From Hemileia vastatrix (Eukaryota; Basidiomycota; Pucciniomycetes; Pucciniales; Zaghouaniaceae), in assembly GCA_030280995.1 (NCBI GenBank), contig JASXTE010000008.1:24673193-24737192 (forward strand): a stretch of 64,000 nucleotides of DNA. The letters run 5' to 3'. The notes beneath the pieces are model-generated. The model made no database searches and was not told the DNA's origin. It was given only the letters and a program-made list of their open reading frames with translations. Both the position numbers and the translations under genes were made by a program. Positions 3,377 to 54,848 of the stretch are shown piece by piece (positions within the stretch are counted from its first letter, which is position 1; each line of letters starts with the position of its first letter).

Positions 3377-4618
3377 ATTTTTATTTTATTTTATTTTATT
3401 TTTTTTATTTTTTATTTTTATTTTTATTTTTATTTTTATTTTTATTTTTATTTTTATTTTTATTTTTATTTTTATTTTTATTTTTATTTTTATTTTTATT
3501 TTTATTTTTATTTTTATTTTTATTTTTATTTTTATTTTTATTTTTATTTTTATTTTTATTTTTATTTTTATTTTTATTTTTATTTTTATTTTTATTTTTA
3601 TTTTTATTTTTATTTTTATTTTTATTTTTATTTTTATTTTTATTTTTATTTTTATTTTTATTTTTATTTTTATTTTTATTTTTATTTTTATTTTTATTTT
3701 TATTTTTATTTTTATTTTTATTTTTATTTTTATTTTTATTTTTATTTTTATTTTTATTTTTATTTTTATTTTTATTTTTATTTTTATTTTTATTTTTATT
3801 TTTATTTTTATTTTTATTTTTATTTTTATTTTTATTTTTATTTTTATTTTTATTTTTATTTTTATTTTTATTTTTATTTTTATTTTTATTTTTATTTTTA
3901 TTTTTATTTTTATTTTTATTTTTATTTTTATTTTTATTTTTATTTTTATTTTTATTTTTATTTTTATTTTTATTTTTATTTTTATTTTTATTTTTATTTT
4001 TATTTTTATTTTTATTTTTATTTTTATTTTTATTTTTATTTTTATTTTTATTTTTATTTTTATTTTTATTTTTATTTTTATTTTTATTTTTATTTTTATT
4101 TTTATTTTTATTTTTATTTTTATTTTTATTTTTATTTTTATTTTTATTTTTATTTTTATTTTTATTTTTATTTTTATTTTTATTTTTATTTTTATTTTTA
4201 TTTTTATTTTTATTTTTATTTTTATTTTTATTTTTATTTTTATTTTTATTTTTATTTTTATTTTTATTTTTATTTTTATTTTTATTATTATTTTTATTTT
4301 TATTTTTATTTTTATTTTTATTTTTATTTTTATTTTTATTTTTATTTTTATTTTTATTTTTATTTTTATTTTTATTTTTATTTTTATTTTTATTTTTATT
4401 TTTATTTTTATTTTTATTTTTATTTTTATTTTTATTTTTATTTTTATTTTTATTTTTATTTTTATTTTTATTTTTATTTTTATTTTTATTTTTATTTTTA
4501 TTTTTATTTTTATTTTTATTTTTATTTTTATTTTTATTTTTATTTTTATTTTTATTTTTATTTTTATTTTTATTTTTATTTTTATTTTTCTTTTTATCTT
4601 TATTTTTATTTTTGTTTT
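3377..4618. repeat. 1.2-kb (TTTTTA)n microsatellite
   Basis: After a few TTTTA units the sequence is an almost perfect TTTTTA hexamer repeat for about 200 units, with one visible interruption near 4286 and decay at the right end. The equivalent place in element B (about 18597-18690) has only a short impure A/T-rich repeat, so this is an expansion specific to A. No gene. Confidence 0.95.
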
Positions 4619-28845: not shown

Positions 28846-29522
28846 ATGTTACAAAGACCGGATAATAGTGATAATGATGAATGGGTAGATATAAAAAGAA
28901 AGTCACTGGAATTTTATCTCTCCAGAAAAAGATTAATGAGGAGGAGGTATTCAAATCCTCAAGTAGTTATTACTCAAAAGAAAGGGAAAGAATTGGTTAT
29001 GAAATCACTGCATGAAGATCTTGGGCATAGAGGAGTTGGTAAAACTTATAGACAAATTTCTGATAGATTTTGGTGGCCTGGTATGAATCTTTCTGTTAAA
29101 AAATGGGTTCAGTCATGTGAATAATGTCAAAGGAAAAGTAATTTAAGGCATAAAAAACCTGGACATGCAACCAGTGAAAACACTCTTTTTGGTAGTGTTA
29201 GTTTGGATGCTGTTCATATGAAGAAGGTGAGATACAAATACTTGATTGTAGCCAGAGATGACTTATCTGGTTGGGTAGAGGCAGTGCCTCTTATCAATTT
29301 GAATTCAAGGAATGTGGAAGATTTTTTGATGAAAAACTGGGTATATAGATATGGAGTGATAGAGTTGGTAACCATGGATGGAGGTCGTGAATTTGGGACA
29401 AAATTTAGAGATGCTATATCAGGAGTTGGATAAAAGGTTAGGGTAGCAACCCCATATTATTGCAAAGCTGAAGGAATGATAGAAACATGTAATTAAGTTA
29501 TCAATAATGCTTTAGTTAAAAT
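28846..29522 (+). pseudogene. Integrase of element C, N-terminal part
   Basis: The zinc finger reads HEDLGHRGVGKTY and SCE-stop-CQRK. The DDE core reads VSLDAVHMKKV, VTMDGGREFGTKF and EGMIE. Stops are at 29122 and 29431. The domain is cut after INNALVK by Harbinger E1; the rest is at 36126-36660. Confidence 0.88.
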
Positions 29523-29865
29523 AGGGGGTGTCAGTTCTGGCAAACACGCACTTACAAATCCACACTTAAATAAGTGCGGATTTCTGAAGCACGCTAGCCC
29601 CAATACTGGTGGATTTCAAAAGTGAAAAAAGTCACTTATTTCACTCAAATCCGGACTTTCTCAACCAAAAGTGCTGATTTCACCATCAAGTCCCATTTCA
29701 CTGATTTGTCAGCATCATCCTATTCATACGCAGCACTCCACAGCATAACACTTCATAACTCAAAACATTGTACATCATTTACATCTTCATATCATATCAT
29801 ATAGAGTTATGCCTTCCTCACTTTCAAATCGTGATAAATTACATAAAGAAATGACTTTCAAGGCT

Positions 29866-31074
29866 CTTTAGCTGCTCTTGCAATCTGATTGCGATTCTGA
29901 TTCTGATCTAGAAGAAGATTTTGTCTTTTTATTAAAAATGGCCACAAAATGTTACCTTCTTCCCAGAAAGCCTCAAGTACTTCATACCCCCAAATACACC
30001 ATCCAAACACTTCTTAACCTATCTACACCCAGTTTTAGACAGCTGTTCAGGACTTCTCAGGAATGTTTCCTTAAATTTCTTGAGCTTATTCAGGATCATC
30101 CCATATTTCACAATAATTCTCAAAAAGAACAACGACATCCTTCAATTCAATTGGCCATCACACTATGTCGTTTGGGTTCAAATGGTAATGGAGCCGCTTT
30201 GAAACGTTTAGAAAATGTCTTTGATTTAGGGTATGGTTCAGTTAACACTTATACCAAACGATGTATCACTGCCATCAACTCCTTGGAATCTCAACTTCTC
30301 ACCTGGCCAACAAAAGAAGAGCAACTTGAATCATCTCAGGTTATGCAAGCAGAGGGCTTCCCAGGATGTATTGGTTTTGTTGATGGTACTACTATTCCTT
30401 TGAGCCAGAAACCTGCTCAAGGTGGAAACAATTACTTTGACCGTAAAAAGAGGTAGATTATTTTTAACTCCTTTCATTCTCTTTGAAACTAACACAAACA
30501 AATATATCTTCTTTATAGATATTCATTTTCCGTTCAGCTTATATGTGACGTAAACAAAAAATTTATATCATTCTTTGCTGGCTATCCTGGCTCATGTCAT
30601 GACTCCTACGTCTTTGAAAGAATGCAAATTTCAAATGAACCTGAAAAATTCTTTGATGAAGATCAGTATCTTCTTGCAGATTCTGCTTTTGTGAATGGAA
30701 AGTATGTACTTCCTGCTTTTTGGGGAGCAGCTTCAGAAGACAGTCAAAATGCCAAGTTCAACAATCATTTGGCAAAGTCAAGAGTCCGTATTGAAAATTC
30801 TATTGGAATCTTGAAAGGCTGTTTTTCTAGTTTAAGGGAATTAAGAAGTCCTCTTAGAAATAAATCTGAAATGGAGGCAGTGATCAACTGGATTCTGTGT
30901 TGTACTATACTTCATAACCTACTTGCTGACCTCAAAGATCAATGGTTAGAGCTGTATGAAGATGAACAAGTTGATTCACCTCCCACTATATCCAACACTT
31001 TTATTTCTCAATCAACTAGTATAAGGGCAAAAATTCTTCCAATAACACTCCAACATTTTTCAATGCAATTTTAA
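29866..31074 (+). CDS. HARBI1-type DDE transposase of E1
   Basis: Exon 1 runs to 30452, intron 30453-30518 (66 bp, GTAGAT...TTATAG), exon 2 30519-31074. The start is unclear: an ATG at 29851 is followed by a TAG six codons later, while the E2 copy is open at this place, so the N-terminus may be damaged. From 29878 on the frame is open. The nuclease fold shows the triad: GFVDGTTIPLSQKP (Asp), GYPGSCHDS (Asp) and RVRIENSIGILKG (Glu). Upstream is a helical region (FRQLFRTSQECFLKFLELI, then LAITLCRLGSNGNGAA) as in HARBI1 proteins. It would cut and move the element, normally together with a Myb/SANT-like partner, which is present at 34440-35753. Apart from the start this copy looks intact. Confidence 0.85.
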
Positions 31075-31539
31075 TTTTTTTTTTTCATTCTCTTCAAATG
31101 ATCAATTTGCATGTGTTATTCACTGATAATGGTAATTTTTTTTGCATATTTTTTTGGTTTTTGAATTTGCTGTTAAAGTCTTATTTTTTTATCTCTCTGT
31201 GTTTTCTTTCATCAACTCAACATGAAATCGCATATTTTCTGCAAATGCATTTTTTTTCAGTCAATCTCTTTTTTTTCTTCACTCATATCCGTTTTCTCCT
31301 CTCTTCCTTCATCACTCAAAAAATTTCATATATATTTCTTTTTTCTAAACTCATCTCTCCAGGTAAGTCATTTTATCTTTTTTACTTAATTTTTTGCTAA
31401 TTTTTTTTTTTTTTTGGTTTTTTGGGTTTTTTTTTTTTTTTTTTTGTAAGTGGTTTTTTTTAATTTATAGGTAAAATTAACTTTTTTCTCTCTCTCTCTC
31501 TCTCTCTCCCTCTTTTCTCTAATTTATCCTATTCTTTAT

Positions 31540-32340
31540 CCCCCCTTGGCCTGGGCTTGTTCCCATCTTTACCCTCTCCTTGGAATGGATACATCCCCCT
31601 TTTCCCCCCTTTGGCTGCCTTATTCCCCCCTCCTTGGCTCACTCTAAACTTCCTTTTCTCCCTCTTTGGTCTCATCTCTCCCTTCCTCCCCCTTGTTGGT
31701 GTCCTCATTTCCTCCCCTCATTCCTCTCCAACCCCCCTCCAAATTCCCTGAATCACCCCTCAAAATCCCCTCAAAACCCCCTCCAAACTCTCCTAATCAC
31801 CCCCTCCAACCCCCCTTCCAAACCCCCCTTCAATCCGTTCCTAACCCCCCCTCCTACCCCCCTCCTTTCCCCCTCAAAACCCCCCTACCCCCCCCCTTAA
31901 AGGTTCCTTAACAATTTGCTATTGATTTGTTAAGTTAATGAACGATTTTTAGCAATTGTTTGTTATCTTAATGATTTGCTAAAAAATTGTTAATTTAATG
32001 AACGATCGTTAGCAATTGTTTGTTAACTTAACGAATCGATAGCAAATTGTTAAGTAACTTTGAGGGGGGGATTGGGGGGGTTTGGAGGGGGTTTGGAGGG
32101 GGAGGTTAGGGGGGATAGAGGTAGATTGAAGGGGGGGTTGGAGGGGGTTTGGGGGTATTGAAGGGGGGTTTGGAGGGGGATTTGGAGGGGGGTTTTGAGG
32201 GGATTTGGAGTGGGGTTTGGAGGGGGGGGTTTGGGGCAGATTGAAGGCGGGTTCGGAAGGGGGTTTGGAGGGGTTTAAAATGGGATGTGAATAGGTTGGA
32301 GGGGGGGTTTGTACAAGGGTTTTGGGGAGGTGGGAATGGG
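31540..32340. repeat. Large C-rich/G-rich inverted repeat of E1
   Basis: A C-rich arm (about 31540-31905, runs like CCCCCCTCC) is followed by an AT-rich palindromic core (31909-32057, starting CTTAACAATTTGCTAT and ending as its near reverse complement) and a G-rich arm (about 32060-32340, runs like GGGGGTTTGGAGGGGG). The strand could form a very large hairpin, and the G-rich arm has many G-runs able to form quadruplexes. E2 has an analogous structure at 39690-40420. Pro/Ser-rich open frames in the C-rich arm are not genes. Confidence 0.85.
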
Positions 32341-32553
32341 GAAGTGATAAAAAAAATTGAAAAAATTCCCAGTTTTTTGACTTTTTTTTGGTTTTTTTAA
32401 TTTTAGAGAAAAATATTCATCAAGTTCAAGTGAAATAAAAAAAATTCTTATTAGTCTTTTGAGGATTTTTTTTTAATTTAAATTAAGTGAGTTTTTTTTT
32501 ATTGTATAATTTTGGATGTTTGAAAAGTAACATATTTTTAAGTAGAAAAATAC

Positions 32554-33740
32554 ATGTCTTTAACTTCAGATTCACCACTTACCTCATTCTCATCTTCTTT
32601 AACTTCATTATCATCTTCAAATTCAACTTCTTTTCAATCATAATCTAAAACATTGACGAAAAATGAACAGTATCAAAATAAAAGAAATTTAAAAAAAAAT
32701 TCACTTGGATCAAATATTTGGCCATATTTCAAAAATCAAGTACTATAAAACTAAAGTTGAAAAAAAAACAATATCCAAAAACATTACCTGATAATATACA
32801 TTATTTAACTGAAACTGGAGGTGATGAAGTTAGAGCTGTTATTAATAATACTTTCAAACCTCAATTTATTTACAAAAACCATTCTTTTAATGGTTTAAAA
32901 GTTGAATCATTTAATCAACTCTGCAATCTCATCATAACACTCTATCAAATGGCTTTGGTTCACTTACCTTTAAGGAATAAGAATTTGTTGGGTGGAATCA
33001 TGATTGGTATTGGATGGAGACCAGGATTTGATAAAGTATTTTCTCTTGGTATGTTTAAAAATTTTGCTGGATTTTTTAATATCATTTTACTGAATTTAAT
33101 ACAAATAGGAATATATTCTTTACTCATATCTTTATCTAAAGCTGAATTAGATAATGATTTTTGAAAATGGAATACTTTACCTTCATTTAATTCATTTCTC
33201 GCTCTTTGACTTATAAAACTCTGTAATAAAGCTTTTGAAAAAAATCATGAAGTTGCTACGAGACTTGGAATACCAAATTGGTGTGACTCTGAATGGGAAG
33301 ATATTAGCAGTGAATATCTAATGTTTTCAAATGTTATAATCACTCATTCTGGATTTCATAACCAAATTCACACCGACTCAAATGATTCCAATTACCTCAC
33401 TTATGGAATTTTCACATTTATTAATCCTATCACTGGACAACCTATTCCGTCACCTGCAAAAATTAAAGGACATGGATTATATTTCCCCGATCATAGATTT
33501 ATAATCAATTTTGGATTAGGAAATGGAATCATCAAAACAGTTTGGAATTCTTCTTACAATAATCACCAAACCACAAAGGCTCCTCCAGGTTTGGAATCTT
33601 GTCAAGACTTCATGCATTTTGGTTGCTCTTTCCAGATCAGTCAAAAGTTAATCCAACAAATAAACAAGTTAAAAAAAGAAGAAAAAGGTAATAAATTTAA
33701 AAATTCTTTAGGTAGATCCAAAAAGTATGGGGATTTGTAG
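32554..33740 (+). pseudogene. TET/JBP-like 2OG-Fe(II) oxygenase of E1, with premature stops
   Basis: The ATG at 32554 starts a Ser/Thr-rich leader as in E2. The domain begins at about 32750 (NIHYLTETGGDEVRAV, then LIITLYQMALVHLPLRNKNL). An intron is likely at about 33048-33110 (GTATGT...AATAG), as in E2. The core 33240-33740 has HNQIHTDSND with the HxD iron ligands, YFPDHRFIINFGLGNG, NHQTTKAP with a candidate second His, and HFGCSFQIS. This matches the Tet-like 2OG-Fe(II) oxygenase family of basidiomycetes, whose relatives oxidise 5-methylcytosine or thymine in DNA; the substrate here is inferred. Stops: a TAA in the leader, and TGA at about 33162 and 33208; E2 has CGC and CGA there. Confidence 0.8.
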
Positions 33741-34439
33741 AGTCACCAAATATTTAATAAATAAATATGATATTTCAATTTATGAAATTAAAGTAATGGG
33801 CCAACGACCTTGTGTTGTATAAAAGGTAATCATGATAACATTAATTTTTTTCATGGGGTTCCTCTAGCCTATACCTGTGGAAAGTCCCAAACCTAGTTTC
33901 TAGACTTGATCTGCATTTTGGCATGAGGAATTGTCATTACTTTAAAAGTAGTAAATTTGACATATCTTATTTATATATTAATTAATTTATGTAATTATAT
34001 TAAATTTTGATGACTTTCACCCTTTACTTCAATAAAATGCAGGGGAGAGTATTGCCAATTTTTTAAATCTGACATGTGAAATTGATGACTTAGAAAAATT
34101 TGGTGGTACACACCCCTTGTTTCAATAAAATTCAGGGGAGGGTATTGCCAAATTTTCAAAAGAGATATTGGATTTTATTGACTTAGAAGTATTTATTTAA
34201 GCAAACTTATTGACTTGAAAGTAAAGATAGAAAATTTTTATTATAATTTCAAATTTTTGTCAAAATAAAAGTATAAGCAAACTTATTGACTTGAATGTAA
34301 AGATAGAAAAATTGTATGATATTTTCAAAAATTTGTCAAAAATAACGTACTATATCCAAGACCTTTTATAAGTCAGCATATAAGAAAATATTACCAAAAA
34401 GAAATCAAACAAAATTAAATTAACTAGGAAAACAATTTA
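33741..34439 (+). repeat. Conserved block and short tandem repeats downstream of the E1 oxygenase
   Basis: A block at about 33790-33960 is very similar to 42350-42520 of E2 (for example CATGGGGTTCCTCT). Then come two units with CTTCAATAAAATGCAGGGG or TTCAATAAAATTCAGGGG (34018-34200), and two shorter units with GCAAACTTATTGACTTGAA (34200-34345). No intact gene. Confidence 0.6.
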
Positions 34440-35753
34440 TCAATTGAAAAGGTCAAGTAATTTTTTAATGTCCTCATAAGATTGGTCATTTTTTACACAT
34501 TCCATAATGAAATCTTTTTTTTAAAACTCTGTTGTTTTTCCAATTCACAAGTAGCCATTTCTCTTTGAAATTTACGGTCATTTACTCTTTCCATCTGCTC
34601 TGCCTCAAATTTTTTTTCTTCCAAATCTAAGGCTTGCTGATCTTTCCTTAGCATATGATCAAACTTCATCTTCTGAAAGTCAAGGGCATTTTTCGCAATA
34701 GTTGATTTTGCTGAGAAAATTAAATTGAAATAAATAAATAAATGAGTTAATGTTTAAGATATATAGTAAACAAATCTTACTTATATCTTTTTTTTCAAAA
34801 TAATCCTCAAGGGAGCCAACTGAGCTTGTAGAAGTATTACCACGTTTCAATAGATGGTTCAAGTTCATTGAAGTTGAGGCTCGATGCTTTAGTTTGGAGT
34901 TTGAACAAGAGGCTTCAGGAAGTTCATCTAAAGCAGCTTCTAAAGTGGGATTCACATTTCCAGAATTGAGATTATTTAATGGAGATTGAGTTTGAGTAGG
35001 AGGAGACTAGAATGAAAGAGAAATTCAGAGAAGAATTGAAGAAAAAACAAAAAGTAAACATACATTTAAATTTTAGGCCTCTGAGTATTCAGATATGCTG
35101 CAATATAATTGTTCTGCTTGATAGTCAGGATCATCTTCAGCTGAACCATGGTTAGAAGGTGGAGGGGATTGATCCTGTTGATGTACAGGTATTTCAGGAG
35201 GATTAATTGATGGTTGAGATCCAGAGGGTATATGCTTAGAAGTATTGTGTAGAAACCAAGGGTTTACATCAACTCGGGAGCCAAAAAGATTATCCATTTC
35301 CTCATAGAAAGGACACATGACAATGAGATTTTCGGAAACAGTAGTAATTCCAATCTCCAAATCATCATCGTCAATACCAAAGCCAGTTTCATTTGCAGCA
35401 TGATGAGCCTTTTTATATTTTGATTGGTAACTCTTAAATCTCTCCTTCATTTGTTTAGGATTGATATTGATTCTCCCCCTTGTTTTCTTCCTTACTTCAT
35501 TGGCCATCAATAAGTAGCCATTAACCTTTGAAGAAGGTGGACATCCAATATGAGTGGACTTTTCACATCCAAAACATGCTTCAAAATTTGATTTTATTTT
35601 AAGGAAGTTGATTATGATGAGATAATCATCCTTTTTAAGCTGACCTGAACCTGGCTTTGATTTTTTAGGTGTAGGGCTTGCTTTACAAGGAGAATTTTGT
35701 GACAAAGCAGATTTTTGAGTTACCTTTTGAGATTTGGAATGTCCGGGAGGCAT
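34440..35753 (-). pseudogene. SANT/Myb-like DNA-binding partner of E1 with coiled-coil tail
   Basis: The ATG at 35753 starts a Ser/Lys-rich leader (MPPGHSKSQK). Then follows a helical trihelix/SANT-like block with LKKDDYLIIINFLKIKSN, SSKVNGYLLMANEVRKKT and PKQMKERFKSYQSKYKKA. An acidic Pro-rich segment ends with a TAA at 35073, before the likely intron to exon 2 (about 35000-34770). Exon 2 and the tail are rich in Glu/Lys/Gln (KDQQALDLEEKKFE), typical of a coiled coil, and end near 34440 after a frameshift in an A-tract. Harbinger elements usually encode such a protein, which helps the nuclease enter the nucleus and bind the ends. The order is the same as in E2, and the SANT assignment is by pattern, not by search. 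Confidence 0.7.
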
Positions 35754-36125
35754 TATGAAACTGGCATAACAAGAAAAAAGATTGAGAGGTAGAAGAAATA
35801 AGTAAAAAAGAATGTAAACATGCCTGTTCAAAATGTTGAAAATGTCAGGAAGGGGTGTGTGCCAAGGATTGATGGGTAGGTAGCGAGGAAGGTCAGTGTG
35901 TCACATGTGACAGGGATGGGGTAAGAAAGGAAGGGATTTTTTGTGGCCAACATGTGGTTGTGAAAAAAAACGGGAAAAAAGTGCTGATTTGAGGTCATAA
36001 CTGACACCCATTTTTGAAATAAGTGACTTTTTTGCAAAATTTAAGTGCTGATTTGTAAGTGCTGATTTGGTTAGAAATCTGCACTTAAGTTAAGTGCAGA
36101 TTTGCCAGAACTGACACCCCCTAAT

Positions 36126-37530: not shown

Positions 37531-37910
37531 AGGGGGTATCAATGTTCAGGGATCCACAATTAGGGATCAGGAATTTTTTTTCCCGGGATCAGACATTATT
37601 AATTGCGGAAGATTCTTATCCACTAGCCCCAGGGCTAGTGGATAATAAATCCACAATAATTCATTATCCCGCCTCTTATACCCCAATTTCCATTCCTAAT
37701 TCCTGATCCCAAACTCATCTCATCCATGATAGATTTTTAAGAAAGTCACATGACTTATAATTGCTGATGCCATCCTTAAGTATTTCCTCACTCTATGCTA
37801 CTTAATTTTGGTGGCGAACACTTAAGTTTTTTTTCTATCTACACACCCCAACTGCACATTTGGCGGTGAATTCCCACTTCCCTCATCACATAACCCTTCC
37901 ACCAGCAACA

Positions 37911-39170
37911 ATGAAACACCTCTCTACTAGGAAGCTACTTCACTCAACAATGAATGCTATTACTTTTCTTTTAGTTCCTTACTATAAATCTGACTCTGAT
38001 TTGGAAGATGCTTTAGCTTATATGTGTTTTCTTTCCAAAAAGTGTTACATCATCACCAGGGGGGCAAATCTTTATCATGATCCCCAATATGATCTGGCCT
38101 ACATTCTCAACATTCCTCATTTAAACTTCACACAACTTTTTAGAACTTCTCCCGATTCTTTCTTCAAACTTTATCAACTCATCTCCGATCATCCTATCTT
38201 CCATAACAATTCTCATAACAAACAGCGTAATCCTGCCATCCAACTTGCTGTTGCTCTATGTCGCTTTGGCTCAAATGGAAATGGTGCTGCCATAAGACAT
38301 TTGGATAATCTCTTTAACATAGGATATGGTACCGTGATATTATACACCAAGCGCTGTATGATTGCTATCCTTTCCCTCAAGTCTCAAACTCTTGCTTGGC
38401 CAACTCCAGAACAGCGACTTGAATCCTCTCAAGTAATGCAAGCTGAAGGTTTCCCTGGCTGTATAGGTTTTGTTGATGGCACAACCATCCCTTTGAGTCA
38501 AAAGCCAGCTCATGATGGCAACCATTATTTTGATTGCAAAAAAAGGTTTCTTCAAAATCATCTCCAAGTTCTCATCTTTCACAATCTAACTTTTAATCTT
38601 CTTTCTAGATACTCTATTGCGATTCAACTTGTATGCGATGTCAATAAAAAATTTATTGCTTTTCACAGTGGCTGCCCTGGATCATTTCATGACTCTTCCG
38701 TCTTCCAAAGAATGAGGATTTCTCAATCCCCTGAATCATACTTTGATGAATCTCAGTACCTCCTTGCAGACTCAGCATATGCAAGTGGAAAGTACATTAT
38801 ACCTGCTTTCCGTGGTGCAACTTCAGAAAATGACCCCAAAACTAAATTTAATTATCACCTTGCACAATCAAGAGTACAAATTGAACATGCTATAGGTATT
38901 TTAAAGTGACGATTTTCTAGTCTTCGGGAGCTCAGAATCCAATTTCAAAAAAAATTGGAGATCAAAACTGCAAATCATTGGATCTTGACTTGCGTAATAC
39001 TCCACAATATTCTAGCTGATTTAAAGGATGAGTGGAATGATCTTTATGAAGAAGAGGATCCTGAACCACCACTGGCACTCCCCTCCCTTGATTCACAAAT
39101 CATTCAATCAACCGGCATACGCCCCATTATAATGCCAATTACTCTCCAACATTTCTCTTCACCCTTTTAA
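37911..39170 (+). pseudogene. HARBI1-type DDE transposase of E2, one in-frame TGA
   Basis: The ATG at 37911 starts MKHLSTRKLLHSTMNA. Exon 1 runs to 38545, intron 38546-38608 (63 bp, GTTTCT...TTCTAG; it is a multiple of three and has no stop), exon 2 to 39170. The triad is present: GFVDGTTIPLSQKP (Asp), GCPGSFHDSS (Asp) and RVQIEHAIGILK (Glu). Directly after that a TGA (38907-38909) stands where E1 has Gly/Cys, before RFSSLREL. The rest (39170 end) is open and matches E1. Either the copy is dead or it is truncated after the Glu. Confidence 0.85.
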
Positions 39171-39517
39171 TTTTTAATTTTTATGTTTTCATACTTTCCA
39201 AATTTCCTCTTTGTGTACTTTAATCACTTGGTTTTGTATTTTGGTTTGTTGCATATTCATTTTTTTTTTGAATTTACGGTGAATATCTTTTTTTTGGATG
39301 GCTCATTGGTTTTCTTTCACTTCCTCAACATGAAATCGCATATTTTCTTATATCGCATATTTTGTCAGTGATTTTTTTTTTCATTAATCACTCATATCCT
39401 TTTCATCCTCTCCTCAAACATCCCTCAAATATTTTGGTTGCATTTATTTTCTCAACTCAACTCACCAGGTAGGTCATTTTTTTTCTTTTTTCATGGTTTT
39501 TTATTTGCTAATCATGA

Positions 39518-39548
<31 letters not shown>

Positions 39549-39689
39549 TGCTTTTTTTTTTGGTTTTTTTGTTTTTTTTGTAAGTGCTTCTATTATTTTT
39601 GTTCTAGGGTAAACTAATTTTTGTTTTGCTTTTTTCTCTTTTTTATCTTTTTATTTTTTTGTTTTTTTTCTCTCCTTCACCTCTCTTTA

Positions 39690-40420
39690 TGATCCTCAAG
39701 GCCCCCCTTTTTCCCTCTCTTTACCTGTCTCTGACCCCCTTTTTACCCCCTTTTTAGCTGCCTCAAATCCCCCTTTCCCCCCTCTTTAGGTCCCTCATCA
39801 CCCCCTTTCCCCTCTTTTTAGGTGCTTCAATACACCCCCCTTCCCCTCTCTTTATGTCCCTCAAACCCCCCCCCTTCACCTCTCTTTACCCACATCAAAC
39901 CCCCCCTTTCCCTCTCTTTAGGCGCCTCAAACACCCCCCCTTCCCCCCCTTCTACTCACTTTACCCCCCTACCTAATCATTATATCCTCCTCTACCCCCC
40001 CCCCCCCCTGTTTATTAACGAACGATCGTTATAGATCGTTCGTTAACATGGAGGTGGGGGGGGGGGTGGGTGTTGGGGAAAGGGTTTGGGAGGGGGTAAG
40101 GAGATTGGAAGGGGGGGGTTTGAGGTGCCTAAGGAGAGGGGAATGGGGGGGGTTGAGGCGCCTAAGGAGAGGGGAATGGGGGGGGTTTGAGGCGCCTAAG
40201 GAGAGGGGAATGGGGGGGGGGGTTTGAGGCGCCTAAGGTGAGGGGAATGGGGGGGGTTTGAGGCAGCTAAAGAGGGGGGAACGGGGGGGTTTGAGGCAGC
40301 TAATGAAGGGGGAAGGAGGGTGATGAGGGACCTAAAGAGGGGGGAAAGGGGGGTATTTCAGGGGGATTTTGAGGCAGGCAAGGAGAGCATTTGAGGGGGA
40401 AAAGGGGACTTTAATGGGAG
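39690..40420. repeat. Large C-rich/G-rich inverted repeat of E2
   Basis: The C-rich arm (about 39690-40008) and G-rich arm (about 40047-40420) flank a perfect short palindrome with a 6-base loop at 40014-40046 (arms GTTCGTTAAC and GTTAACGAAC type). The G-rich arm is made of about 40-bp tandem units with GAGGCGCCTAAGGAGAGGGG; the C-rich arm holds their complements (TCTTTAGGCGCCTC). It lies between the transposase and oxygenase genes, as in E1. Confidence 0.85.
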
Positions 40421-41022
40421 ATAAAGATGGGTTACTAACTTTCAAATAAAGATACTAAAAAATTTTTGTTTGTAATTTTGATTATTTTTTTTATTTTTTT
40501 TGCAGTAATATAGAAAAAAAAAAATTCTTGCTGATAAGGACTGTCCCTCTTATTTACAAAACAAAAAAGGTTTATAATTTTATTTTTATTTTTTCTATAA
40601 TTAATTTTTGTGATTTTGATTTTAATTAAATAATTTTTTTATTTTTTATTTTTATTTTACTGATTATTTTTTTTTTTCATGATCTTGTGAGAAGGTTTTT
40701 AATAACCAATCTTCAGGTTCACTTTTAATTTTTTTTTTTTTTTTTTGTGTTTTAATTCTTACTGAAATTTTTTTTTTGAATGAATTTAATTATTAATTTT
40801 TTTAATAGTATTTTGCTTTGATTGTGTTTTTTAAAATAAAACCTCAGGTTTTTTTATTATACTTTTTTTTTTGGAAAAATTTTTACTGATTTTTTGGTTT
40901 TTTTTTCAATTTTATTTTTAAAATAAAAAAACAGCTTTTTTTATTATTAGGTAGGAATTTTTTTTAAAAAAAATTTGAGTTAAAATTTTATTGACAATTA
41001 ATTTTTTTTTCAGATCAAAAAA
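40421..41022. other. T-rich spacer of E2
   Basis: There is no gene. Poly-T runs alternate with A-rich stretches and end in a polypyrimidine-AG (TTTTTTTTTCAG at about 41002-41013) just before the oxygenase ATG, which may be the acceptor of a 5' intron. Confidence 0.4.
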
Positions 41023-42272
41023 ATGTCTTCTTCTTCTGATTCACCCCTTACTTCTCTCTTATCTTCATCTTTATCTTCTTTATCATCTTCATCTTTATCA
41101 TCTCTATCATCTTCTTTGAAATCAACTCTATCATCTTCTTTGAAATCAACTTCCATACAATCATCTTCTAAATCATCAAAAAAAATTAAAGATAATCAGT
41201 CTCATCAGAAGAAAAGATATTTAAAAAAAAAGTCTCTCTGCGAAAGTCGTTTTCTTCATATCCCAAACATTTTTTTTATAAAACTAAAGTAGATAAAAAA
41301 AATCAATATCCAAAAAAATTACCAGAAGATATCAAATATCTAACAGAATTTGGAGATGATCGAGTTGTTGCAGTTATCAGAAATGCTTTTAAGCCTCAAT
41401 TAATTTTGGAAGTTCATTCATTCGATGGTGTAAAAGATGAAGCTTTTAATCAACTATCGAATCTTATCATAACTCTTTATCAAATGGCTTTGGTTTGATT
41501 ACCTATAAGGAATAAGAATTTGTTGGGTGGTATCATGATTGGTTTTGGTTGGAGACCTGGTTTTGTCAAAGGATATTCTCTTGGTATGTCTAATAATTTT
41601 TGTTCCATTCTTAATATCATTTCACTTATTTCAATTATATAGGTATATATTCATTGCTCAATAATATCACTAAAGCACAAAAAGATGAAGATTTTCGCTT
41701 ATGGGACACTCTACCCTACTTTAATTCTTTTCTTGCTCTTCGACTCAAAAAGCTCTGTAATAAGGCATTTGAAAAAAATCATGAACATTGCAACCAAAGT
41801 TGGAATACCGAATTGGTGTGACTCCAAATGGGAAGATATCAGCCACGAATATCTTTTATTTTCTAATGTTATTATCACTCATTCTGGATTCCACAATAGG
41901 ATTCATATCGATAGGAATGATGCCAATTTTCTTACTTTTGGAATATTCTCATATATCAATCCGATAACTGGCCACCCAATACCATCTCCAGCTAAAATCA
42001 AAGGACATGGTTTATATTTTCCAGACCACCGGTGCATCATTGATTTTGGTTTGGGAAAGGGTATCATTGAAACTATTTGGAATTCTTCTAAGGATAATCA
42101 TCAAACGACCAAGGCTCCTCCTGGTTTGAAATCCTGTCAAGATTTCACTCATTTCGGTTGCTCATTTCAAATCAGTAATAAGTTGATACAAAGAATCAAT
42201 AAGGTAAAGAAAGAAGGTAAAGTTATTCGATTTAAAAAAACTTTATCTAGATCCAAAAAGTATGGGGATTAG
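41023..42272 (+). pseudogene. TET/JBP-like 2OG-Fe(II) oxygenase of E2, broken
   Basis: The ATG at 41023 starts a Ser-rich leader with repeated SSLSSLSS units and a Lys-rich end. A stop/shift lies at 41290. The domain then reads KYLTEFGDDRVVAV and LIITLYQMALV, with a TGA at about 41496 where E1 has His. The intron is about 41584-41641 (GTATGT...TATATAG). Exon 2 reads YSLLNNITKAQKDEDFRLWD and has a 1-nt insertion near 41787. The core 41808-42272 has HNRIHIDRND (HxD), YFPDHRCIIDFGLGKG, NHQTTKAPPG and HFGCSFQIS. It is close to the E1 protein, so the gene was inherited with the element. By family it should be an iron- and 2-oxoglutarate-dependent oxidase of modified bases in DNA. Confidence 0.8.
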
Positions 42273-43120
42273 AGTTGTCATCGAAAATTTTATATTTTTT
42301 CATAAATTTTTAATAAATATTTTTTATATATCGATTTTCTCAAATAATGTGATGAGCCATCGACCTTGTGTTGTATAACAGGTAATCATGATAACATTTA
42401 TTTGTTTCATGGGGTTCCTCTTTCCTATACCTGTAGAAAGTCCCAAACTTATGTTTCTCGACTTGGTCTGCATTTTGGCTTGAGGGATTGTCATTACTTT
42501 AAACTAGGGAAATTGATATATATTAGATATTTATTTAATAATTTATGTAATTATATTAAATTTAGATGACTTCCACCCCTTACTTCAATAAAATGCAGGG
42601 GGGGGTATTGCCAAATTTTCAAATCTGACATGTGAAATTGATGACTTAGAAAAATTTTGGTGATACCCACCCCTTGCTTCAATAAAATGCAGGGGAGAGT
42701 ATTGCCAATTTTTTTAAACAGATATAGAATTTTTTTGACTTGTAAATATTTTTGTGATACCCGTCCCTTACTTCAATAAAATCCATGGGGGGTTGTGCCA
42801 AAATTTTTTATAAGACTTGTGAAATTCTTGACATGTAAGAATTTTTAGGATACCGGTAAAATGCAGGGGGTAGTAAAGCCAAATTTTCATATAAAACTTT
42901 CAAAATTCATGACATGAAAGAATTTTTGTGATACCCACCCCTTACTTCAAAAAAATCCAGGGGTGGGGGATTGTCAAATTTTCAAAGGAGACTTGAAAAT
43001 TTTATTTAAAAAAAGAATATTTAACATTAAAATACGATATTTCAAGAAATACAGAAAATAATTGTAAAATTTATGTACAAATAAATATGAACACATGAAG
43101 TGTGAAAGAAATAAAAGAAA
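42273..43120 (+). repeat. Conserved block and tandem repeat downstream of the E2 oxygenase
   Basis: The block 42350-42520 matches E1 33790-33960. The tandem array 42573-43005 has about five units of 80-100 bp, each with a core like CACCCCTTACTTCAATAAAA followed by ATGCAGGGG and TATTGCCAA. The unit edges (GATACCC and GGGGTATTG) resemble the element's own end. Confidence 0.65.
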
Positions 43121-44518
43121 CTAGTCAACAAAAAATTTCATTAAAAGTTCTACTTCTTCAACAGATTTGTTTGCTTTAATGCATTCAATCAAGAAATCTT
43201 TCTTTTTAGAACTTTCTTGGAGATCATGCTTATACTTCATCTGTTCCATTAAGTTTTGATGCTCGAGTGTTTTTTCCTTATTTTTGGATTTTTCAATACT
43301 AAGAGTTAACTCAAACTTCTTCTCCTCCAAATCTTGGGCCCTACCATCCTTCTGTAAAGAGAGCTCAAACTTCTTCTCCTCCAAATCTTGGATCCGATCA
43401 TCCTTCTGTAAGGAGAGCTCATACTTCCTCTCTTCCAAATCTTGTACTCTGTCATCCCTCCTTAAAGAGAGCTCGTATTTCTTCTTTTCAAAGCTCAGTG
43501 TCTCTTTAGCAATTTCCACTTGTTCTAGAGTGAGAATAAAAATTAACATAAAGTAGAAGAAAAGCAGAGTAAAGTAATAAGAGGTATGATATCACTTACC
43601 AGCATCACGTTTCTCTAAAAACTATTCCATCGAAGAAAAAGGTGTTTGTGATGAAGTATCACTTTTTCGTCTTCTTTGGGAGAGGAAATTTAGACTATTT
43701 GAAGCCCTTCTCTTTTTGTTCAACGTAGCATTTTCCTCCTCATCATTGTCACTAGCTTCAGACTCAGTTGATTGAGGATCCTGGTTTTGTTCATCAGCCT
43801 TTTAAGAAATAAGAAAAAGATAAGTAAATAAAAAAATAGAATTGATAAGATAAAAGAAACAGACCTGAGTTAGATTGGGTTGGGTTAAATCGCCAATAGT
43901 ATCAATATCAAAGCTATCTAGATTGGTAGAATTTAGAAGAGGGGAGGCTTGAGTGGAGGAAGAGGATGGGAAAAGATTTGCTTCGACATCATGTTCGGAG
44001 ATAGGATCTTCACCATCCAACATGTTTACAGGATTAACATCGGCTCGCTCTCCAAAAATTGCATCCATCTCTTTAAAGTAAGGACATAAAGAATCAAGTT
44101 TATTATCTATGGATTTTATACCCTTAGTTATATCAATGTCAGTAACCCCAAAACCAGTGGAAGATGAAAGAGCCTTTGCCTTCTTGTATTTTGCTCGATA
44201 ATGCTTGAAGCGTTCAGACATCTGTTTAGGCAAAAGATCAATCCTTCCCTTGGTCTTATTGCGTAATTCATTTGCTATTAGAAGATAGCCATTAACTTTT
44301 GATGCGGGGGGCCGTCCTACTTTAGTGGCATACTCAGTACCAAAACAAGAATCATAGTTAGATTTGGTTTTCAGCCAGTTGATAAGAATGAGATGTTCAT
44401 CTTTTTTTAATTGAACGGTCTTTGATTTCTCAGCTGAGCGGGGGAAAGAGGAAGTAGTGGGAATTGAAGAACAACTGGGTGATGGCTGCCTTTGAGAAGA
44501 TCTAGGATGACGAGGCAT
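43121..44518 (-). pseudogene. SANT/Myb-like DNA-binding partner of E2 with repeated coiled coil
   Basis: The ATG at 44518 starts MPRHPRSSQRQPSPSC. A helical block follows (VQLKKDEHLILINWLKTKSN, SSKVNGYLLI-like ASKVNGYLLIANELRNKT, PKQMSERFKHYRAKYKKA). Exon 1 ends at 43865 with LTQ; the intron runs to 43802. Exon 2 is acidic and then basic (NKKRRASNSL), with a TAG at 43624 (SSME-stop-FLEKRD). After a second intron, exon 3 (to 43121) is a coiled coil with four tandem 18-residue units (KKFELSLQKDGRAQDLEE type). It is a homologue of the E1 gene at 35753-34440. It should bind the transposon ends with the nuclease. Confidence 0.7.
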
Positions 44519-44869
44519 GTTATTATAAATGAAGATGAAAAGGAGCAGAGACAAGCAGATGAGATAGCGAGATGAAAAGGAGAAGAATCAAATAGATGAA
44601 ATGGGGAGAAATTCTGAGCGGATAGAATGAACAGGATGGGATGAGAATGGAAGTGCGCAGCAAGGTAGAAGGCTGGGATATCCAGAAAGTTGTCCAAGAT
44701 GTGGTTATGGAAAATTGAGTAAAAAAATGTCGGATAAGAGGTGAACATTGACACGTAAAGTGTCTAATAACCCAATTATTAGCAAAAATAATTGCGGAAG
44801 ATAATTGGGGTATGCAGATTATTTTCCGCAATTAATTTAATTGCGGATTGGTCAACATTGATACCCCCT

Positions 44870-49789: not shown

Positions 49790-52700
49790 ATATCCAGGCT
49801 GACACTTTTTATTTTCCTTTTTTCTGTTTATTTTATTTTCCTTTTATATTTTTATGCTACTTTTTTGTTCTATTTTTTCCATTTTCATTTTTTTCTTGTA
49901 TTCTCCATTTCTTTTGTTTCTTTCTTATTTTAGTTTTTTATTTTTATTTACTTTTTTTATTTTTCTTTCTTTTTCTTTACTTTCTTTTTTCTTATTTTTT
50001 TCCTTTTTTTTCCATTATTTTTTTCCTTTAATTTATTTCATATTATTTTGTTTCTTTTATTTTCCTTTTTTATTTTTTATTTCCTATTTATTTTATTCTT
50101 TTTTTAGTTTCTTTTCTTTTTATTTCTTTTTATATTTTCAACTTTTAATTTTCTCCATATTTATCTTTTTAGTTTTTTTCTTTTTTATTATTTTTTTTTC
50201 TTTTTTTCTTTTTTCTTTTGTTTTTTTGTTTCTTAATATTTTTTTCTTTTTTTTGTTTCTATTCTTTTTTTTTCTTTTTTTTATTTATTTTTGATTTTTC
50301 AAATTTAATTTTTCTCTTTTTTTCCTTTTTCTTTTAATTTTCCATTTTATTTTCCTTTTTTTTATTTGTTTTATTTATTATTTTCCTTTTTTTTCCTTTT
50401 TTATTATTACCCTTTTTTTAATTTTTAATTTTTTTTATTTCTTTTATTATCTTTTTTTATATATTTTACATTTTATTTTACATTTTTTTTAATTTTTTTA
50501 CAATTTTTTCCATCTTTTCATTAACTTTATTTTTTTACTGTTTTATTTTTTCCTTGTTCTAATTTTCCTTTATATTTTATTTTATTTTATTGTTTAAATA
50601 TTTTTTTTCCTTTAATTATATTTTAATTCCTTTTTTATTTAAATTTATTTTCATATTTTCCTGTTATTTTTCATTTCCATTTTTTTGTTATTTTTTTGCA
50701 TAATTTTTGTCCTTTAATTTTTAATTTTACTCTTTAATATTATTTTCCATTTTTCCCCTAATATTTTTTTTCTTTTCTCTTGTTACTTTTTTTCCTTTAA
50801 TTTTTTTTTTTTTTTTTACTTTTTTTTTATTTATTTTTTCCCACTTTTACATTTTCCTTTTTTATTTTTTCATTCTTTTATTTTCCTTTTTAATTTTACT
50901 TTTTTCACCTTATATTTTTTACCTTTTCTATTTTTTTAATTTTTAAATTTTCTTATTTTGCTTTTTTCACTCTTCTTTTATTTTCCATTTTTATTATTTT
51001 CCTTTATTTTTTATTAAATTTTTTTTTATTTATTTTGTTTTTTTTTTCTTTTTTTTCAATTTTTTTCATTTAGATTTTTCATTATTTTTTTCCTTTTTTC
51101 TTTTTTTGTTTAATTTAATTTTTTTTGCTTGTTTTTTCCATAATTTATTTTGTTATTTTTTTCCTATTTTTTACTTCTTAAAGTTTTATTTGTATTTTCC
51201 TTTTTATTTTTTTTATATTTTCCTTTTTTTTTGCTTCTTTTTTTTACATATATTTTTTTAGATTATTTTTTTCTTTATTTTAAATTTTTCTTTCTTTATT
51301 GTTTTCCTTTTATTTTATTCCTTATTTCCATTTCTTTTTCTTCATTTTTTTCAATTTCATTTATTTTTTTATATTCCTTTTATTTTTATTTACTTTTACT
51401 TTTTTTCATTTTCCTTTCCTTTTGTTTTTTCTTTTTATTTCATTTTACTTTTAGTTTTATTATTAATATTATTATTTTTGTTTTATTCATGTCCTTTTTT
51501 TTTCTTTTTTCTTTTAATTTTTAATTTTTGATTTGTTTTACTTTTTTATTTTTCTCATTATTTACTTCTCTTACTTATTTTTCTTATTTTTTATTTTAGT
51601 TTTTTTTCCCTTTTTTAATTTACCTTTTAAAGTGTTTAATTTTAATTCTATTTTATTTTACTTAAATTTTCCTTATAATTTTTATTTTAACTTTCTTTTT
51701 CTTTCTTTTCCTTCATTTTTTATATATCCTTATATTCTTTCCTTTTTTTTCCTTTTTTTCCTTCTCTTTTTCTTTTCCATTTTTCATTTTTCCTTTTTTT
51801 TATATTAGTGTTTTTTTCTTCTTTTTTCAATTTTTTTGTTTCCTTTATTATTATTTTATTCAATTTTATTTTATTTCCTTTTTTAAACACTATTTTTTTA
51901 CTTTTTTCTATGTTACTTTTTTTTTATACTTTTTATTTTTTACTTTAATTTTTTTGCTTTAATTTTTTGCTTCTTCAACTTTAATTTTCTTTTTTATTTT
52001 TCTTTTTTGTAATTTTTATTTTATTTTATTTTTTTACATTTTTTTATTTTATGTTTACTTTTTTTGTTTTTCTTATATTTTATTTATTTTATATTTATTC
52101 TGTTATTTTCTTTAAGTTTTGTTGTTTTTTTACTTTTTTTTATTTTAGTTATTCATTTTTTACTTTTTTGTTTGTTTCTTTAATCTTCCTTTTGTGCTTT
52201 TTTTTGTTCATTTAATTTTTTTCCTTTTTCTTTTCACTCTTTTATTTTTATCCTTTACCCTTTTTTCATCTTTTTAATTCTTTTTTTTTTACTTTTTACT
52301 TTTCTTTATTATAATTCTTTTTATTTTCCTTTTTTATTTTTTCTATTTTCTTTCTATTATTTTCCTTTTTCATTTACTTTTCTTTTTTTTTAATTTTTTC
52401 CTTTTATTTTTTGAGCTGTTATTTTATTTTTTTATTTATTTTTTATGTTACTTCATATTTTTCATTTGTTTTTCATTTTTTTGTTTTTATTTCATTTTAA
52501 TTTTTTTTCTTTATTTTTTTACTTTTTAATAATCAAATTTTTATTATCCTTCTTTTTTTTTTACCTTTTTTTATTTTCATTTTTTTTTGTTTCTTTTATT
52601 TTCCATTTTTCTTCTTTTTTCCATTTTTCCATTTTTTTTTATTAATTTTCCTTTTTATTTTCATTATTTTGTTTTTATTTATTTTTACTTTTTCTTTTCC

Positions 52701-54482
52701 TTGAAGTTTTTTTCTTTTATTCAATTTTGTCATACCTTTTTTCATTTCTTTTATTTTACTATTTTTTTCTATATTTTCCTTTTTTTTAATTTTGTTTTAT
52801 TATATTTTTCATTTTATTTTTTTATATTATATTATAATTTTATATTTTATTTTAAGTTTCATTATCTTTTATTTTCCTTTTCTTTCCCTCCTTTTTCTCT
52901 TTTTCCCTTTTTATTTATTTATTTTACTTTTAATTTAAATATTATTATATAAATTTATTTTGTTTCATTTTACTTTTATTTTATTTGTTTGTTCATAATT
53001 TATTTATTTTATTTATCTTTTATAATTGTATTATTTCTTTTTTTGTTTTTGTTTCTTTTATTTTATCTTATATTCCATTTTTCTATTTTTTAATAATATT
53101 TAAATTTCCTTTTTAACATTTTTTTTCTTCTTTGTTTTTAATATTTTTTTACTTATCACTTTATTTATTTCTTTTCTTCCATTTTTTTCCATTTTTTTAT
53201 TTTATTTTTTATTTACTTCTGTTACCTTTATTTCCATTTTAATTTTTTCTTTTATTAACTTTTTTCCTTGTTTTACTATTTGTTTTTTTTTTTTTTGGTT
53301 TAGTTTTAGTTTTTTTTAAAAAAACCTTTTTTTATTTTAATTTAATTTTCCTTTTTTAATTTTTTTTTACTTACTATTTTAATTCCTTTATTTTATTTTA
53401 TATTTATTTTCTTTTTTTATTTTTATCCTTTATTTTTCTTTTTTTTCTTTTTTTTCTTTTTTTTTCTATTTTTTGTTTCTTTTTGTGTCTTTTTTTATTT
53501 TTTTCCTGTTTTCCTGTTCTTGCATTTTTTCATTAGTTTTAATACTTTAAATTTTTCTTATTTTCTTTTTTACTTTATTTTTCATTTTTTTCATTTATTT
53601 TTTTTCTTTATTTTCCTCCTCCGGTTTCTTTGACTTTTTTTTTATTTTTTTTGTTTAATTTTTTTTTTACTTTTTTTTATTTTTTACATTTTTATTTTAT
53701 ACTTTCATCTTTTTAATTTTTCTATTTTTCTTTTTTCATTTTATATTTTTTGCTTCTTCTTTTTTTTATTTTTATTTTTTTCATTTTTTCATTTCAACCT
53801 TTGTTTCATTTATTGACTTTTTTGACTTTTTTTCTTTATTTATTTTCCTTTTGTTTTTTTCCTCTCTGTAAAATATTTTTTTTATCTTTCAATTTTTTAC
53901 TTTTTTATTTTTTTTATTTTTAATTTACTCTTTAATTTTAATTTTTTGTTCCTTTTATTATTTTTTCTTAATTTTTTTGTATCTTTTTTTTTTCTTTTTT
54001 TTTTTTTAGACTTTTTTTTTTATTTTTTTACTTTTTTGATTTTTACTTTTTTTTGTTTAGTTTTTTATATCTCAATTTTTTTACTCTTTTCTTTGTTTCT
54101 TTTTATTCTACTTTTCTATTTTTATTTTATTTTCTTTAAATTTTATTATTTTTTTTCCTTTAATTTTTTTTTGTTTTCTTTTCCTTTTTTTCTTTCCTTT
54201 TTTCTTATTTATTTTTTTCCTTTGTTTTGATTCAATGGTTTCCCTTTTTTTTACTTTTTTTTATTTTTTTCACTTATTTTTTTTGTTTCTTTGATTTTTT
54301 TACTTTATTTTCCATTTTATTTTCATTTTTCTTTTATTATCTTTTCTTTTCTTTTATTTTTCATTTTATTTTTATTTTCCTCCATTTTTCCTATTATTTT
54401 TTTCCTTTATTTTTTTTGTTTCATTTATTTTTCTTTTTTATCTTCCATTTTTTCCATTTTTCACTCTTTAATTTTTTACCTT
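49790..54482. repeat. 4.7-kb T-rich, G-poor low-complexity tract
   Basis: The plus strand is almost only T with C and A, and G is rare, over about 4.7 kb. There is no fixed period, but short units such as TTTTTCTTTT or TTTTATTTTC recur. The open frames inside encode only Phe/Leu/Ser/Tyr/Ile-rich strings expected from the base composition. It starts near 49790 and stops abruptly at the Harbinger end fragment at 54490. Confidence 0.9.
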
Positions 54483-54489
54483 TTCATTT

Positions 54490-54848
54490 GGGGGTATCAA
54501 TGTTCAGGGATCTGCAATTAGGGATCAGGAATTTTTTTCCCTGGTATCAGACATTCTTAATTGCGGAAGATTCTTATCCACTATCCCCAGAGCTAGTGGA
54601 TAAGGAGTCCACAATAATGCATTATCCCGCCTCTTATACCCCAATTTCTGTTCCTAATTCCTGATTCCAAACCCATCCCATCCATGATCAATTTTTAAGA
54701 AAGTCACATGACTTATAATTGCTGATTCCATCCTTAAGTCTTTACTCACTCTATGATACTAAATTTTGTGGCAAAAACATAACTTTTTTTCTCATACTTA
54801 TGTGTCTCTTCACTGTATGATACTTAATTTTGGTGACAAACACATAAT
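54490..54848 (+). mobile_element. Left-end fragment of an E2-type Harbinger element
   Basis: The sequence GGGGGTATCAATGTTCAGGG and the following ~300 bp match the left end of E2 (37532-37840), including the subterminal palindrome (54590-54620). It carries an internal duplication with ACTCTATGATACT and ACTGTATGATACT. No transposase or right end is present. Confidence 0.85.

Follow-up and report, generated by a model that had tools for sequence, protein, structure and literature searches.

A Tet-like oxygenase gene shared by two families of Harbinger transposons in the rust fungus Hemileia vastatrix

Introduction

What does a transposon gain by carrying a gene for a Tet-like oxygenase? The question is raised by a 6,600-bp element (element 1) at 29523..36122, forward strand, of a 64,000-nucleotide stretch of Hemileia vastatrix DNA (assembly GCA_030280995.1, contig JASXTE010000008.1, positions 24,673,193 to 24,737,192; the whole stretch is called the window below). 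Transposons with a DNA-demethylase-like gene of their own can show whether mobile elements themselves counter epigenetic silencing. In this genome, element ends run to thousands, copies with open genes can be set beside gene-less ones of about equal age, and CpG decay serves as a clear clock; long-read methylation calls could thereby separate action in cis, action in trans and absence of effect. An earlier note, made from the sequence of the window, had suggested that the enzyme may protect the transposon that carries it from methylation or mark its copies.

The answer favoured here, given about an even chance as a whole, is that element 1 and a neighbouring element 2 are decayed members of two large Harbinger families whose common ancestor already had the oxygenase, that the gene was kept by selection, and that its product, if it helps at all, probably acts on the DNA of the family in trans or only briefly. 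Residence of the gene, selection on it and recent spread are shown by the sequences; expression, oxidation and action in trans are inferred.

Structure and genes of element 1

The stretch 29523..36122 is a genuine transposon of the PIF/Harbinger superfamily, as the earlier note had recognized. It ends in perfect 22-bp terminal inverted repeats, AGGGGGTGTCAGTTCTGGCAAA, at 29523..29544 (plus strand) and 36101..36122 (minus strand, no mismatches), and is flanked by the target duplication AAT at 29520..29522 and 36123..36125. The repeat is found twice in the window (shuffle mean 0.01; none of 100 shuffles had two or more), and 33-nt arms starting at 29522 are 91% complementary. The insertion lies in a gypsy element, adjoining gypsy integrase domains. 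With the site emptied to one AAT, the junction aligns without a gap to two gypsy relatives within the window, whereas neither aligns without a 3-nt gap when the site is emptied as a TA duplication. As in PIF/Harbinger elements, a DDE_Tnp_4 transposase occurs together with terminal inverted repeats and a 3-bp duplication.

From left to right, element 1 has the transposase gene, a T-rich stretch with a C-rich/G-rich palindrome, the oxygenase gene and, on the opposite strand, a third gene that is weakly Myb/SANT-like. The transposase gene (29809..31074, plus strand) has two exons separated by a predicted 66-nt GT..AG intron at 30453-30518, the exon boundaries being predicted from the sequence; a profile search of the window gave a DDE_Tnp_4 match at 30493-31074 (E 1.1e-24; E 2.4e-26 in copy L057), and a single in-frame stop lies close to the start. 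The oxygenase gene (32554..33740, plus strand) also has two exons, with a predicted 60-nt intron at 33049-33108, and matches the 'Tet-like' 2-oxoglutarate (2OG)-Fe(II) oxygenase family 2OG-FeII_Oxy_6 (PF20515) at 33210-33740 (E 3.1e-23). Its HxD iron motif, reported by the earlier note, reads HTD. The gene is broken, with in-frame stops at 33162 and 33207 in exon 2 and an interrupted exon 1. The third gene (34440..35752, minus strand, low end approximate) has about three exons, the last of them frame-shifted; its match to Myb_DNA-bind_4 (PF13837) at 35073-35900 (minus strand) has an E of 0.0022, below the Pfam cut-off, and relatives covering both families reach 0.0019 and 0.0016, also below the curated cut-off. 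The note's gene set is borne out, with a SANT-like label that stays sub-threshold for the third gene, but the oxygenase is broken, the transposase has one stop, and a second element close by had gone unmentioned.

Two families with the same gene order

Window self-comparison revealed this second element at 37531..44869 (plus strand), inserted in an (AAT)n target. It belongs to a diverged family with ends, AGGGGGTATCAATGTT, related to those of element 1, and has the same gene order: transposase, palindrome, oxygenase and Myb-like gene. Comparison with element 1 placed its transposase at 37911..39170 (plus strand, one in-frame stop) and its oxygenase at 41023..42270 (plus strand, broken by one stop and two frameshifts); the Myb/SANT-like gene at 43117..44518 (minus strand, low end approximate) was placed by a sub-threshold profile match as well. 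DNA identity between the two elements is about 65% in the transposase region and 77% in the oxygenase.

Both families are large in the searched assembly (747.6 Mb, 791 contigs). The end pattern of family 1 has 5803 plus-strand and 5822 minus-strand matches with at most three mismatches (control, 1 and 0), and that of family 2 has 5508 and 5537 by strand with at most one mismatch (control, 3 and 4). First-look searches gave 14,169 candidates for an oxygenase piece, 10,849 for PF20515 and 10,795 for a transposase exon; these totals are unconfirmed counts, with 150 scored per search. No PF20515 candidate came from any of 14 control genomes. Low GC, gypsy DNA and this wealth of PF20515 candidates are in keeping with a rust genome. 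Of the 150 oxygenase exons with the highest scores, 103 contain no stop, as do 138 of the 150 scored transposase exons. Nineteen of these 150 transposase exons, across 13 contigs, have an identical score (410.8 bits, E 2.4e-121), a pattern that recent spread would produce.

Copies of family 1 were sampled as 32 plus-minus pairs closer than 10 kb (L009-L040), taken from 100 listed perfect-end sites in the first 12 Mb of contig C2; L041-L043 formed no pairs and were left out. These perfect-ended copies are probably younger than the average. The target duplication of canonical PIF/Harbinger elements is TWA. Here, 3-bp duplications flank 31 of the 32 pairs (17 AAT, 14 ATT; those of L018 are unequal), AWT duplications flank 10 of 11 family-2 pairs (those of the other are unequal), and two further family-1 copies, L056 and L057, have ATT and AAT, respectively, on both sides. 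If the flanks of family 1 were read as TA, the match of the W base on both sides would be chance. Among 16 insertions with a junction-spanning match to an empty site, AWT is the better fit in six (L009, L012, L020, L033, L034 and L038), with a margin of about three gap positions. Against AWT, TA has a slight lead in score for L013 and L014 and is the sole match for L037, in low-complexity or element-end matches; the rest are of low quality or favour neither.

Gene content varies widely among the 32 copies. Both oxygenase exons occur with transposase and Myb-like gene in four, and a partial oxygenase with the same two genes in one. Ten have the transposase only; these are young, and in nine of them both transposase exons are open. 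A whole or partial transposase with the Myb-like gene is found in four copies, and three are short remnants. The remaining ten, of 3.4-3.8 kb, are mosaics with the 3' oxygenase exon only (L011, L015, L021, L022, L025, L026, L027, L031, L032 and L040). In the three mosaics that were mapped, family-1 ends enclose an inverted piece of family 2 with oxygenase exon 2; the inserted segment of L026 is 93% identical to element 2 and 82% to family 1. By this comparison, the mosaics point to gene pieces passing between the families. The 3.4-3.8 kb class was considered as a working 'oxygenase-only' element and rejected, as it has only the inverted family-2 3' exon, with in-frame stops in L026. All three elements fetched from family 2, picked by length, contain transposase, oxygenase exon 2 and Myb-like gene, and one has exon 1. 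Two further oxygenase lineages occur in the genome, at 52-58% identity to family 1 (L081, L083-L086, L088 and L096-L098; L082 and L090).

Open copies and purifying selection on the oxygenase

Six further loci (L054-L057, L103 and L104) were picked for long open oxygenase frames. In L103 all seven exons are open and the oxygenase keeps its HxD motif. The oxygenase is likewise open, with HxD, in L056 and L104, both of which have a transposase interrupted by a stop; the Myb-like gene is open in L056, whereas its end is frame-shifted in L104. Transposase and oxygenase are open in L057, but the motif is HxN and Myb-like exon 3 is frame-shifted; in L054, transposase and Myb-like gene are open and exon 1 of the oxygenase contains a stop. 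Decay has gone further in L055 than in the other five. Open copies are spread over several chromosomes. The 389-residue reading of L056, with the intron read through, scores 110.2 bits against PF20515 (cut-off 27) over profile positions 8-211 of 211, and HxD is present in all 20 genome copies drawn from the top PF20515 scores.

Selection was estimated between the families as the ratio of nonsynonymous to synonymous substitution (dN/dS, NG86), family 1 being represented by L056/L057 and family 2 by element 2, L058, L059 and L060. Ratios for oxygenase exon 2 are 0.13, 0.11, 0.12 and 0.12 (in that order of family-2 copies), and those for exon 1 are 0.29 and 0.39 (element 2 and L059, the two of the four with this exon). 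Where unsaturated, the transposase gives 0.09-0.12 and the Myb-like gene 0.20-0.24. Codons read one base out of frame gave 0.87-1.64 over all rows and 1.03-1.64 for the oxygenase. Several comparisons are near saturation and three are saturated; partial decay of the family-2 copies should push the ratios up, not down. Low between-family ratios against the out-of-frame control indicate that oxygenase and transposase were both kept functional by purifying selection once the families had separated. When single family-1 copies are compared with the references, their ratios range widely, from 0.1 to about 1.9, in line with decay that follows insertion.

Relation of the oxygenase to TET and JBP enzymes

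By its profile match the oxygenase is classified as a member of the Pfam Tet-like family PF20515. Its place among TET/JBP enzymes rests on Pfam together with the HHpred and AlphaFold-DB similarity of PU-type enzymes to CMD1, CcTET, NgTET and TET2 stated in the available part of Kojima (2025; PMC12730594). The TET/JBP identity proposed by the earlier note is supported at the level of the Tet-like profile and was not recovered by other comparisons. When 13 genome copies were compared by hhalign with 27 phage relatives of the Tet_JBP (PF12851) type, the probability was 0.1 (3.2 for a control of 15 AlkBs); the alignment was shallow (Neff 1.25), so this failure says little. A PDB search yielded no match by sequence and, by profile, seven matches at E 0.36-1.9 with no TET among them. 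An AlphaFold model of two oxygenase pieces from the window was discarded (predicted local distance difference test, 31). In a protein database search with the oxygenase reading from the window, none of 1380 candidates reached a score, the database apparently being without rusts, and pieces of the oxygenase and the transposase found no match when viral contigs were scanned.

These results bear on the alternative that survives best, although it is still rather unlikely: that the protein is a 2OG enzyme for another substrate (N6-methyladenine, thymine, RNA or protein) and no 5-methylcytosine oxidase. It would account for the missing match to phage Tet_JBP and to PDB TET structures; the phage profile itself reaches NgTET1 at E 0.006. 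Further activities are left possible in the accessible text of PMC12730594. Opposed to it are the 110 bits over nearly the full Tet-like profile and the structural similarities reported there for PU-type enzymes.

CpG decay of copies with and without the oxygenase

A strong CpG, and especially TCG, mutation signature is present in the three copy classes examined. C>T changes relative to the class majority were found in full oxygenase-bearing copies (n = 9) at 88/353 TCG, 118/729 VCG, 114/6564 TCH and 164/10778 VCH sites, in mosaics (n = 10) at 48/225, 41/453, 50/4205 and 37/7430, and in transposase-only copies (n = 10) at 15/189, 23/643, 6/3202 and 16/5566, respectively. Such a CpG/TCG signature has been reported for Pucciniomycotina (cited in the accessible part of PMC12730594), and it fits the 5mCpG methylation of young transposons described in the available text on Austropuccinia psidii (PMC12774611). 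Another paper, as far as its accessible sections go, described rust transposon families without a signature like that of repeat-induced point mutation, but found DNMT1 and DNMT5 genes (PMC12210899).

Young copies were compared in trios, which share copies and are not independent. Five young oxygenase-bearing copies (L054, L056, L057, L103 and L104, the second and the last two with open HxD oxygenase) have private C>T at 4.0-6.2% of CpG sites in all ten trios, at an A/T divergence of 0.0012-0.0018. The trio with open HxD (L056, L103 and L104) has C>T at 21/474 CpG sites and 17/5799 other C sites. Among the 12 youngest trios of oxygenase-less, transposase-only copies, nine at A/T divergence 0.0013-0.0016 have 4.5-5.8%, and three slightly older ones, at 0.0017, have 0-2.9%.

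The values are roughly alike in the two groups, and in this small test an open oxygenase therefore gives its carrier no visible sparing. This weakens the earlier note's idea of protection, by which the enzyme would clear methylation from its own copies and so keep them active and less prone to decay. Such lasting protection in cis would suit the purifying selection seen on the gene, and the available part of PMC12730594 speculates that TET counteracts C-to-T hypermutation. However, the older full-length oxygenase-bearing copies are also heavily mutated at TCG and VCG. In this first small comparison cis protection is disfavoured, and it is considered improbable.

Action in trans and the remaining alternatives

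The favoured reading, of a selected oxygenase acting in trans, would work as follows. Open copies would express the oxygenase, and the enzyme would oxidise methylated bases in the DNA of the family, with 5-methylcytosine at CpG as the likeliest target. It would do so in trans and transiently, for example by relieving silencing or helping excision when a copy moves. The whole family would benefit, including derivatives without the oxygenase gene, and the carrier copy would get no lasting protection from methylation-linked mutation. Action in trans is suggested because the young transposase-only derivatives, nearly all with open transposase exons, have spread without the gene.

Several points weigh against this reading. 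The same derivatives might mean instead that the oxygenase is dispensable for recent spread. The relation to TET/JBP was recovered neither by hhalign nor by the PDB profile search, and the decay comparison rests on five young oxygenase-bearing copies, only three of them with an open HxD oxygenase. The host cytosine methyltransferase family (PF00145) has eight matches, only on the four small contigs C228, C561, C74 and C350, none of chromosome size, in a search that may miss exons. The 3-kb stretches around these matches have a GC content of 0.33 (C228) and 0.45-0.48 (C561, C74 and C350) and may be host genes or foreign contigs.

Chance capture of the oxygenase as a neutral passenger is very improbable. 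The earlier note had tied this possibility to how many other copies carry the gene, and both exons are indeed present in only four of 32 perfect-ended copies, with the mosaic 3' exon alone in ten; yet dN/dS is 0.11-0.39 against 1.03-1.64 out of frame, place and order of the gene are common to two families, and open copies lie on several chromosomes, so the gene is under selection and no chance insertion. Equally improbable is an enzyme that raises CpG mutation through mis-repair of oxidised methylcytosine to T: C>T changes in the trio L054/L056/L057 favour CpG over non-CpG sites by a ratio of 72, a figure based on just five non-CpG events, but the ratio is much lower in the other oxygenase-bearing trios (about 15 with open HxD), and oxygenase-less copies of similar age have like CpG rates.

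Comparison with known transposons

The combination of a Harbinger transposon with a Tet-like oxygenase is not new; it was published for rusts in December 2025 (Kojima, 2025; PMC12730594). The accessible part of that paper describes TET-bearing Harbingers from A. psidii and from five species of Puccinia under the name PHISTA, so the view of the earlier note that a Harbinger is a new partner for such genes does not hold. PHISTA is defined there by TA duplications, its third protein is described as being without a Myb/SANT domain, and escape from methylation was proposed for it. No report of TET-bearing Harbingers besides PMC12730594 was found in a literature search.

The elements described here resemble PHISTA in joining a transposase of the Harbinger superfamily with a Tet-like oxygenase and one more protein in a single unit. 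They differ in their 3-bp AWT (AAT or ATT) duplications in place of TA, and in the weak, sub-threshold PF13837 match of the third protein. T|A...T|A always flanks the ends, and a TA reading of AWT sites is therefore easily made; TA versus AWT may be a real difference or another reading of like flanks. Nuwa and canonical PIF/Harbinger elements share the 3-bp duplication and, as far as the weak match of the third protein goes, the pairing of a transposase with a Myb/SANT-type protein (according to the available part of PMC12730594); the elements here differ by the added oxygenase and the AWT duplication. The KDZ transposons of basidiomycetes (Kyakuja, Dileera and Zisupton) also bear a TET/JBP-like gene (Iyer et al., 2014, as cited in the accessible text of PMC12730594), but have another transposase superfamily and other ends and duplications. 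CcTET, NgTET1 and CMD1 are proposed structural relatives of PU-type enzymes (same source and extent), and the oxygenase here has no sequence-level match to them in the PDB searches.

A stronger version of the favoured reading is tentative and would more probably fail than hold: that the AWT elements form a Harbinger lineage separate from PHISTA, with a selected oxygenase that predates the family split and works as a shared, trans-acting licence, sparing no copy from CpG hypermutation. If so, a minority of full copies would pay for the oxygenase and the transposase-only and mosaic derivatives would exploit it, and rust genomes would hold a public-goods epigenetic counter-defence among transposons.

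Palindromes and other repeats

In either family the oxygenase is immediately preceded by a long, imperfect inverted repeat, first C-rich and then G-rich, at 31723..32247 in element 1 and at 39670..40387 in element 2. Among 22 elements, both palindrome arms are strongly skewed in 10 of the 11 that have oxygenase exon 1 (L016 is the exception) and in none of the 11 that do not, one of which, L017, has one G-rich arm. The palindrome may be a promoter or leader-intron feature.

Elsewhere in the window, a 4.7-kb T-rich tract of about 14% GC with strong strand skew occupies 49806-54484, and the adjoining 54490-54790 resembles the left end of element 2 at 90% identity. At 3377-4618, (ATTTTT)n repeats form an array of 1.24 kb with 98% matches.

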